Below the pieces are notes generated by a model. It saw only the letters and a program-made list of their open reading frames with translations. It ran no database searches and was not told where the DNA came from. Below, piece after piece: positions 9,590-36,552 of a stretch of DNA of 36,552 nucleotides; the first letter of the stretch is position 1, and every line of letters begins with the position of its first letter. This DNA is from Fibrobacter intestinalis (lineage in GTDB: Bacteria; Fibrobacterota; Fibrobacteria; Fibrobacterales; Fibrobacteraceae). A program made the position numbers and the translations under genes. The stretch is from contig NZ_FUWU01000031.1 of the NCBI RefSeq assembly GCF_900167415.1, forward strand, positions 1 through 36,552, given 5' to 3'.

Positions 9590-9980
9590 CCCTTCGACTA
9601 GTTCGACAAGCTCACTAACCAAGGCTCAGGGACCGACCTTCGGCTAGTTAACACACGGATTTGCTCAGAACTACGTTCTTCGCTTTTTGTGGTGAGAGCC
9701 GTCAGGTGCGAACAAGTCCGGTTGTTTTTCACCTTTCCGTGATTTTATACAGTTTTTCATATATCTTGAACAGCTCCGTGACGATTTCGTTTTCGGTCTT
9801 CTTTTTCTGTGTGGAGTGATTCTTTCTTGGACGGTCGGGAGACCGTCCTTCCCAGTGGTTTCTCGCCTTTCATTCCTTATTTCTTTCCCCTCATCACGAA
9901 TCCCTAACCATGGTTCGACAACCGGTCCCTGAGTTTGTCGGCCAACCAAGCAAATCGGGTGGATTTTTGTATATAAGCCC
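9590..9980. repeat. dispersed intergenic repeat, copy A
   Basis: This is most of the 520-base gene-free stretch between murJ and mscL. Two blocks match other gaps in the window. The first is the TTCGACAAGCTCAC module (near 9606) followed by CTAACCAAGG and GGCTCAGGGA. The second, at about 9901-9980, contains CCCTAACCATGGTTCGACAA, then CCAACCAAGCAAATCG and the end box GTGGATTTTTGTATATAAG (9959-9977). The second block is nearly the same as 14462-14527. The left end is not recognisable, so the copy is partial or decayed. The short frames inside it are not genes. Confidence 0.7.
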
Positions 9981-10045
9981 ACAAAATTATTCGTGCCCTG
10001 AATGAAATTGGCGGTGAGTTGTTTTTCTGCGATATTTTCCAGATG

Positions 10046-14166: not shown

Positions 14167-14197
14167 AGGGACAATATAGCTTCTTGACGTTTCTTTT

Positions 14198-14236
14198 GGG
14201 AATTATATAAAATCCTCTACTAAATACTCGCAATTA
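14198..14236 (-). promoter_or_regulatory. promoter-like end of repeat element B, facing galM
   Basis: On the minus strand TTGCGA (-35-like) is followed after 18 bases by TATATA, and after 20 by TATAAT. The -10 box lies about 40 bases from the galM ATG. The sequence is the conserved left end of the dispersed element, so the promoter may have been brought in by the repeat. Confidence 0.5.
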
Positions 14237-14527
14237 AAAAAGTCCGCAGCCCAAGTGTGGATTTCTTTTTCACAAGGGGAATTTCTTCTCGCACTCGCTT
14301 ATGCCCATAAGTCTTGGGAACTTGTTCCCTTAGGCGAATTGTCCCTTCCAGGGATACTTCAACTACGGAATCGGAGATTCTAAGTTTCAGGGAGCCTCGT
14401 GGGAGGCTGCCGATTCTCCCAACTCCCAACTTTCAACTAATCACTAGTCGCTAACCCCTAATCCCTAACCATGGTTCGACAAGTACACCAACCAAGCAAA
14501 TCGAGTGGAGTTTTGTATATAAGTCCC
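14198..14527. repeat. 330-bp MITE-like element with imperfect terminal inverted repeats (copy B)
   Basis: This is most of the 564-base gene-free stretch between galM and the toxin-antitoxin pair. The left end starts GGGAATTATATAAAATCC; the right end is its inverse, ...GTTTTGTATATAAGTCCC. Over 23 bases, 18 match in inverted orientation. TTTT flanks both sides and could be a target duplication, but is too simple to be sure. Inside are AATACTCGCAATTAA (14223-14237), TTTCTTCTCGCA, CCCAACTCCCAACTTTCAAC and ATGGTTCGACAAG, all of which recur in other copies. No reading frame appears functional, so any movement would need a transposase in trans. Confidence 0.65.
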
Positions 14528-14673
14528 TTTTTTTAGGGGACTAGAGTTAAGCTCTTTTACGCTCTGTAAAATAACTTAAAGTTGAGCATTTTGCTCAAAA
14601 AGTTTATCAGCTCGGAAACGCGTGATGGTAAAAAAAACAGGGCTGTTCCGAATTGGAATATGGAGCGGCTCAT

Positions 14674-14730: not shown

Positions 14731-14964
14731 ATGATAGCAACAGCAAAAGGGTTCTTTGACGGACAGCAAATTGTGCTGGATCCACCTGTTCGGCTTGAAG
14801 CCGGACAGGAGGTTGTTGTTGCATACGCTATTGCTTCCTCCGCAAAAAGCAAGGAGACGAAATCGAAAATCGTTGATTCGCTGATAGGAGCCATTCCTAA
14901 TACAGGCAAAGCACTGGACGACTATCGTTCGGAGAGACTTGAAAAGTATGCGGATAATGCTTGA
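14731..14964 (+). CDS. antitoxin of a PIN-toxin pair (DUF104/AF2212-like)
   Basis: A 77-residue small acidic protein. The N-terminal part (GFFDGQQIVLDPPVRLEAGQEVVVAY) has the pattern of short beta-barrel antitoxin-type proteins of the AF2212/DUF104 class. The C-terminal half (KIVDSLIGAIPNTGKALDDYRSERLEKYAD) looks like the flexible helix that wraps a VapC-type toxin. It overlaps the toxin gene by 17 bases, the usual order with antitoxin first. It has its own promoter and a good GGAG site. The family assignment comes from the pattern and from the neighbour. Confidence 0.75.
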   Translation: MIATAKGFFDGQQIVLDPPVRLEAGQEVVVAYAIASSAKSKETKSKIVDSLIGAIPNTGKALDDYRSERLEKYADNA

Positions 14965-15364
14965 CACCAACGTTGTGTTGGACGTCCTGCTAAATCGTCC
15001 TGCATTCGTTCAAAATTCCGCAGCGATTCTTAGGGTTGCGTCTGAAGAAATTCAGGAATTCATTACAGCCTCGGCTATTACTGACATCTACTATATCGCA
15101 CGCAAAGAATTGAGGGGTTCCCTGCAAGCAAAAGCTCTTATCAGAAATTTGTTGCAAATCGTTCATGTTGCAGCAGTATCAGAAGTGGATATATGGGCTG
15201 CCCTTGAGAGCGATTGGAAGGATTTTGAAGACTCTGTTCAAAATACAGTCGCCGAGCATCAACGATTTGACTACATCATTACCCGCAATCCATCTGATTT
15301 CAAGGATTCGAATCTGCCGGTATTGACTCCGCAAGAATTTGCGAATAGGTTTATCGCAAAATAG
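14948..15364 (+). CDS. PIN-domain toxin (VapC-like ribonuclease)
   Basis: PIN-fold Mg-dependent ribonuclease, the toxin half of a type II pair. From ATG 14948 it has 138 residues. Acidic active-site residues appear in MLDTNVVLDVLLNR (first Asp), in KDFEDSVQ (central acidic pair) and in FDYIITRNPSDFKDS (C-terminal Asp). Three starts are possible: TTG 14939, ATG 14948 and ATG 14957. I prefer 14948 because GGAG at 14931 lies upstream and no residues of the fold are lost. The pair sits next to a mobile-looking repeat element, as chromosomal toxin-antitoxin modules often do. Confidence 0.83.
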   Translation: MRIMLDTNVVLDVLLNRPAFVQNSAAILRVASEEIQEFITASAITDIYYIARKELRGSLQAKALIRNLLQIVHVAAVSEVDIWAALESDWKDFEDSVQNTVAEHQRFDYIITRNPSDFKDSNLPVLTPQEFANRFIAK

Positions 15365-18488: not shown

Positions 18489-18549
18489 CTTTTTATATAA
18501 TTGCGTTTATGGCTGCATCTAAAAATTCATTGTCAAAAAATCGTTTGCA
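18489..18549. repeat. repeat-derived sequence upstream of the PorV-like gene
   Basis: AAAAATTCATTGTCAAAAAATCG... (18521-18549) matches 27582-27610 at 27 of 29 bases. TTTTATATAATTGCG just before it resembles the end box of the dispersed element. This means the apparent N-terminal 39 codons of the longer frame from 18509 are repeat DNA and not protein. Confidence 0.6.
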
Positions 18550-18625
18550 ACACGCCGGCTGGTTGCGGAACCTGTCAATGCGCTCTCGATTTTTCTTTAC
18601 CAAAGCCATTTTTAGAAGTCGCCTT

Positions 18626-27557: not shown

Positions 27558-27960
27558 GTGGTATTTTCTATATAAGTCCCCAAAAATTCATTTTCAAAAA
27601 ATCGGTTGCATTAGAGTGGTTGGTTGTCCGTTGCCAGTGGTTAGAGATGAGTTGTCGGTTTTCGCATAAAATTAGGGGATTATATAAATCTTCCTCGGAA
27701 TACTCGCGATTAACTCTTTTTTCAAAGTGAGAACTTTCTCTCGGAAGGGGACTTTTTTCAAACGGGGCGTTTTTTCGCAGAATTTCTTCTAGCAGGCCGC
27801 GAGATGCTTCGCCTTTCCCATGGAAAATGGATTTTGGCTTGAACACAGGAGAAGCGGCAGGCTCAGGGATCGCCGGTTGGTGAGCTTGTCGAACCATGGT
27901 TAGCGCGCTTCGACAACCGGTTGCTGCCCTTAGACAGGCTCAGGGAGCGGTTCTTGATTT
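27558..27960. repeat. dispersed repeat, copies C (two facing ends)
   Basis: A right-type end, GTGGTATTTTCTATATAAG plus TCCCC, lies at 27558-27581. A left-type end, GGGGATTATATAAATCTTCC, begins at 27675, so two copies meet here about 95 bases apart. The second copy then carries AATACTCGCGATTAA (27700-27714), TTTTTTCAAAGTGAGAA, AATTTCTTCT and several TTCGACAAGCTCA-type modules (27870-27940, in both orientations), and fades before 27960. The long minus-strand frame here (27568-27897) begins MVRQAHQ because of the repeat and is not a gene. Confidence 0.65.
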
Positions 27961-36183: not shown

Positions 36184-36552
36184 GGGGCGTTGTATAAATC
36201 CTCCACGACAGTTATTCGTTTTCAGTTTTCAGTTCCAACTCCCAACTTTCAACCGATCCCTGCCCTTCGGCAAGCTCAGCAACCGTTGGTTAGTGAGCTT
36301 GTCGAACTAGCCAAACTAATCGAAGGGGAATTATATACGATCTTCCACCAAATACTCTCAATTAAAAATTTTTTCAAAGTGTGAATATCTTTTTCGCAAA
36401 GTGGAACTCTTTTTTTTCAATACAGGAATTTCTTTTTCAGAAGGAAAATTTCTTCTCGCAGACTGCGAGGTGCTCGCTTGCGCAGCGGGCGGAAGGGATA
36501 AGGGGGCTTCAGAGTTGACGCGTTGCGTCCGCGGCTGCGGCTCAGTAATGCC
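36184..36552. repeat. dispersed repeat, copies D (two left-type ends)
   Basis: The whole 387-base gene-free stretch to the window edge. A left-type end GGGGCGTTGTATAAATCC begins at 36184, 18 bases after mnmE. CCAACTCCCAACTTTCAAC and TTCGGCAAGCTCAG/GAGCTTGTCGAAC modules follow (36233-36310). A second left end, GGGGAATTATATACGATC, begins at 36325 and continues with AATACTCTCAATTAA, TTTTTTCAAAGTGTGAA and AATTTCTTCTCGCA, matching copies B and C. The frame 36166-36384 is repeat-derived and rejected. Confidence 0.7.

Follow-up and report, generated by a model that had tools for sequence, protein, structure and literature searches.

Insertion sequences of the IS1595 family produce 8-bp target duplications and encode transposases with zinc-finger and DDE_Tnp_IS1595 domains (PMC8101967). 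In ISApl4 the 8-bp repeats are A/T-rich (PMC12561309), and ends that begin with 5′-GG occur both in ISApl4 and in Merlin elements, which are related to IS1595 (PMC8101967, PMC12561309). Here, we analysed a window of 36,552 nucleotides from Fibrobacter intestinalis, which is the entire contig C35 of the assembly and contains a 330-bp MITE that we call copy B. The elements of this family resemble IS1595 (ISXO2-like) elements in that their ends begin with GG and their target duplications are 8 bp long and A/T-rich. The preliminary description of copy B had assigned it to no named family; that statement is now superseded, since the ends and the target duplications are those of the IS1595 family (ISXO2-like), which is present in other Fibrobacteraceae. 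We consider it very probable that these elements are a MITE family derived from IS1595-family (ISXO2-like) transposons. The family is new as a family and ordinary in kind, and it adds an IS1595/ISXO2-type MITE family in Fibrobacter; a literature search with incomplete coverage found no account of a comparable family in this genus.

Results

Copy B and the other ends in the window

The window holds one complete element and parts of several others, as follows.

14198..14527, + strand: copy B, a complete MITE of 330 bp; its left end has one mismatch and its right end none to the genome-wide patterns
14198..14221, + strand: left terminal inverted repeat (TIR) of copy B; left-end consensus GGGAATTATATACAATCTTCCACC
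14504..14527, - strand (read inward): right TIR of copy B; right-end consensus GGGAcTTATATACAAAATTCCACCCG
14190..14197, unstranded: left flank of copy B, TTTCTTTT, candidate target duplication, agreeing at 6/8 positions with the right flank and possibly decayed
14528..14535, unstranded: right flank of copy B, TTTTTTTA, candidate target duplication
14303..14404, + strand: diverged version of a 90-nt three-hairpin module in copy B; folds poorly (z -0.95)
14415..14472, + strand: degenerate 7-base repeats of CCCAACT / CTAATCA type in copy B, read directly and common to other copies
9890..9981, + strand: copy A, a right-end remnant with subterminal block CCAACCAAGCAAATCGGGTGGA intact and the left end missing
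27558..27580, + strand: copy C1, an isolated right end with two mismatches
27676..27903, + strand: copy C2, a left end lacking one base, plus left-arm blocks, seen among the repeat pairs of the window; right end missing
36326..36552, + strand: copy D, the left part of an element that runs past the right end of the contig; left end without mismatch

The two ends of copy B match in inverted orientation at exactly 18 of 23 bases, as had been described, and none of 200,000 random pairs of 23-mers from the window reaches this value. At three or fewer mismatches, the right-end pattern is found in the window at 9959-9981, 14505-14527 and 27558-27580, and it also matches the related left end at 36326-36348 on the other strand; the left-end pattern matches at 14198 and 36326. 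Shuffled sequences give 0.00 and 0.06 expected matches for the two patterns. A genuine left end, one base short, lies at 27676 (local score 25). Thus, six of the seven end boxes originally listed for the window are firm, and the one at 36184-36206 is doubtful (score 12, no match at three or fewer mismatches). The boundaries first given for the boxes hold after one-base corrections, and the claim that internal blocks recur in a constant order is largely borne out across the genome.

A family of short elements with common ends

When the 3.29-Mb assembly was searched with the two end patterns at three or fewer mismatches, 65 and 82 raw matches were obtained, two sets that partly overlap because left and right ends resemble each other. 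As a negative control, reversed end patterns gave no match in the same genome. Scanning genome_contigs for exact occurrences of the end box gave no match, and tRNA was the only match in an Rfam search. After merging, about 50 left ends (52 in the consensus) and 46 right ends remained; the two consensus sequences agree at 21/24 positions, so that the left and right ends have diverged from each other. In 22 cases a left and a right end form a pair in correct orientation. Three of these pairs were set apart: C37 (1696 bp), C33 (1555 bp, with a second left end inside) and C16 (weak). The C37 pair was considered as an autonomous copy and rejected, as it spans a yebC-like host gene. The other 19 pairs are individual elements of 177-822 bp, and no transposase gene was found in any of them when every element was read whole. 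Isolated left or right ends are common in the genome. In addition, 23 contig ends of the assembly, including the right end of the window itself, fall inside MITE copies, which account for part of the fragmentation of the assembly.

Target duplications

Exact 8-bp direct repeats flank 8 of the 22 pairs (for example AAAAAATG, TTTATTTT, AAATTTTC, CATTCTAT and TAAAATTT), and 7/8 positions agree in three more. Mispaired left and right flanks are identical in 0.65% of cases; by chance about 0.14 exact duplications would therefore be expected. The outer 8-mers have an A+T content of 87%; the value is 60% at a distance of 20-60 bp beyond them and 52% overall. One pair of copies from separate loci (C108:604-899 and C33:32124-32420) has 97.6% identity across 297 bp and carries different duplications, AAAAAATT and AAATTTTA, from which we infer that the family continued to spread until fairly recently.

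Absence from related genomes

A 206-base query from the left half of the family was compared with 30 relatives, and 29 gave no match. Genome G001 contains a single decayed copy, whose right end is degenerate, and G003 one left-like end; judged by these searches, relatives in the genus are essentially without the family. Since the intergenic DNA of the relatives is too diverged to be aligned base by base, empty sites were scored by the spacing of gene pairs, taken as the distance between the ends of protein matches. The gap between the HIT and permease genes is 573 bp here, where the element accounts for 339 bp, versus 88-131 bp in five relatives, and that between guaA and the pseudouridine-synthase gene is 1064 bp (element 822 bp) versus 71 bp in G001. 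The two genes that enclose copy B encode an aldose epimerase and a flavin reductase; their counterparts in G001 face apart with about 108 bp between them, and this interval contains neither the MITE nor a PIN-domain gene pair. The named relatives of the epimerase are MAGs of Fibrobacter and Fibrobacteraceae, in agreement with the preliminary assignment of the DNA to Fibrobacter. At 14731-15364 of the window, copy B and the flavin reductase gene are separated by a gene for a 77-aa protein followed by a PIN-domain gene; these two genes, which G001 lacks at this locus, look like a toxin-antitoxin insertion.

The preliminary description had proposed a MITE-like, non-autonomous element, to be given up in favour of a loose family of promoter or spacer sequences if either common boundaries or empty sites were lacking. 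Boundaries are shared (52 left ends, 46 right ends, 22 pairs) and empty sites are seen at the level of gene pairs; together with the 8-bp target duplications and the lack of an internal transposase, these findings uphold the proposal.

Autonomous relatives in the Fibrobacteraceae

Among 61 genomes of Fibrobacteraceae searched with the left-end pattern, one, G060, contains it twice in inverted orientation. These ends bound an element of 4466 bp with perfect TIRs, GGGAATTATATACAATGTTCCACC, and a target duplication of eight T; its TIR matches the MITE consensus at 23/24 positions on the left and 21/24 on the right. Its transposase matches PF12762 (DDE_Tnp_IS1595; 4.5e-46) and PF12760 (IS1595 zinc ribbon), and its cargo consists of a 772-aa protein that has no Pfam match and appears methyltransferase-like by eye only, together with two small ORFs. 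The transposon lies at L149 4675-9140 (G060:C3:326674-331139) and adjoins an SNF2-type helicase gene. A second element, of 3273 bp, in genome G040 has identical 28-bp TIRs, the duplication AAAAATTT on both sides and a zinc-ribbon transposase matching PF12762 (4.6e-40) and the NCBIfam IS1595 model (2.3e-62). This transposon (L213 2288-5560) is ISXO2-like and carries three uncharacterised cargo ORFs. Transposase homologues in other genera of Fibrobacteraceae give full-length matches at 40-54% identity. Many transposases of this clade have GGGNNTTATA-type ends 70-470 bp upstream, beside A/T-rich 8-mers, and in further members the end motif GGGA[AC]TTATA likewise adjoins A/T-rich 8-mers. Outside the ends, no clear shared sequence was found between the MITE and its autonomous relatives.

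The F. intestinalis genome has a single IS1595-type gene, which lies in none of the MITEs. It was rejected as the parent, being distant (26% identity) and having ends of GGCTCTGTTC. DDE_Tnp_1 (PF01609) was likewise rejected, with one short match over 43 profile positions that contains a stop. Neither a cognate transposase nor a remnant of any clade-related transposase was found in this assembly, and the family is therefore probably now stranded; we infer either loss of the cognate transposase or its location in DNA missing from the assembly. As a derivative of IS1595 the family has matching ends, 8-bp duplications, an A/T-rich target and 5′-GG; a zinc-ribbon and DDE transposase of its own, as in a member of IS1595 in its own right, is absent. 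Since no copy carries a transposase and the sole IS1595-type gene of the genome is distant, the family is filed as a derivative and not as an IS.

A mosaic interior with a 90-nt hairpin module

The interiors of the elements are mosaics built from other repeats, whose order is fairly constant. The left arm is followed by a CTCGCAGACTGCGAG hairpin, by between zero and three copies of a 90-nt module and by further blocks; then come the 7-base repeats, repeats of TTCGACAAGCTCA type and the right arm. The 90-nt module is present in 34 distinct versions inside and outside MITEs. Besides window 14303-14404, its sites include L013 1501-1596, L126 and others, and it also lies inside CATTGCGAG palindromic repeats. 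It folds into three hairpins with an outer closing stem (z -3.3 and -4.2 in two intact copies). The stem of the first hairpin is GGGAAC/GTTCCC, GGAAGC/GCTTCC, AAGAGT/ACTCTT or AGGAGC/GCTCCT, and complementarity is nearly always kept; the stem versions are a few classes of related copies and represent few independent events. Correction of imperfect palindromes during replication could give the same stem pattern even if the stems had no function. A GTCATTGCGAG...GAAGCAATC-type repeat is split by the module at five sites and is continuous at six others. We tentatively raise the idea, which we regard as possible and somewhat unlikely, that the module is a separate structured element, with three hairpins and an outer stem, its first stem swapped between copies, which would insert into palindromic repeats; mobile hairpins would then nest and the MITE would only carry them. 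The mosaic interior raises the question of how a structured hairpin module spreads, which the MITE shows and does not answer.

Two other repeats were observed. The repeat AAAAATTCATTTTCAAAAAATCGGTTGCA is found at window 18521-18565 and 27582-27626 and at about 1722 of L008; it adjoins MITE ends in some places and stands alone at 18521. In G001:C8 (L230, about 2140-2500), a tandem array of units of about 50 bp (CCACCAAATGTGTCCATTCACTTTTGCAAGATGCTGTTTTACC) lies between the penicillin-binding protein and rlmN genes.

Discussion

How such a family could have arisen may be outlined from the ends and their flanks. A transposase provided in trans would bind the ends of 24-26 bp and cut there, and insertion into an 8-bp A/T-rich target would duplicate the target. 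An autonomous parent that lost its internal part would leave the end regions alone, and later filling of the interior with other short repeats would give lengths of 177-822 bp; deletion followed by repeat filling is thus the presumed origin of the interior. From the similarity of their ends, the IS1595 transposase clade of the autonomous relatives is the likely agent that moved these copies, and the identification of two such relatives makes cross-mobilisation directly testable.

Other readings of the same sequences were weighed. A dispersed family of promoters or spacers, with the end boxes acting as outward promoters (TTGTATATAAT) and kept by selection instead of transposition, would fit the extended -10-like TGTATATAA(T) that both ends show when read outward, and also the left box of copy B, which is directed at the aldose epimerase gene from about 31 bp upstream of its start. 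However, of the 60 ends that have a predicted gene (simple codon-based gene calls) no more than 300 bp away, 24 have that gene directed away from the element and 36 have it directed towards the element; the outward boxes thus show no preference for gene starts, and a general promoter role of the TIR is not supported. In addition, such a family would not be expected to have exact 8-bp target duplications or to be absent at orthologous gene pairs, and autonomous transposons have this very box as their TIR. We consider this reading largely refuted and very unlikely; judged from its position, a local promoter effect of copy B on the epimerase gene is possible.

The many isolated ends could also suggest that the elements are what decay has left of numerous separate autonomous ISXO2-like transposons, and not short copies that multiplied. 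This seems extremely improbable, since the short copies have common subterminal arms and a common block order, one short pair is 97.6% identical despite different target duplications, and neither clade-related transposase remnants in the genome nor transposase fragments inside the copies were found. That the interior repeat modules are the mobile unit and merely carry the end boxes along has hardly any credibility: the 90-nt module and CGTCATTGCGAG repeats do form long arrays outside MITEs, but target duplications lie exactly at the TIR boundaries, and copies of 177, 190 and 280 bp keep both ends while lacking the 90-nt module. Descent from IS1595-family transposons is thus the reading that we prefer; points against it are that no cognate transposase was found in the assembly, that the duplication at copy B is imperfect (6/8) and that the MITE and the autonomous relatives have no clear sequence in common beyond their ends.

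In their TIRs, which are identical to those of the ISXO2-like element of G060 at 21-23 of 24 positions, these MITEs resemble that transposon; unlike IS1595 (ISXO2-like) transposons, they have no transposase gene and measure 177-822 bp versus 3.3-4.5 kb. The Correia elements of Neisseria are similar to the family in being short, non-coding and bounded by TIRs, with dozens of mostly intergenic copies, and they too have a -10-like sequence within the TIR. Correia elements differ in that they duplicate TA, whereas the duplication here is 8 bp, and the interior of the MITE is larger, more variable and composed of other repeats. REP-type palindromic intergenic repeats resemble the interior modules, which are palindromic, dispersed and partly nested; however, the modules are repeats in their own right, present outside the MITE as well, and it is the TIRs and target duplications that define the MITE.
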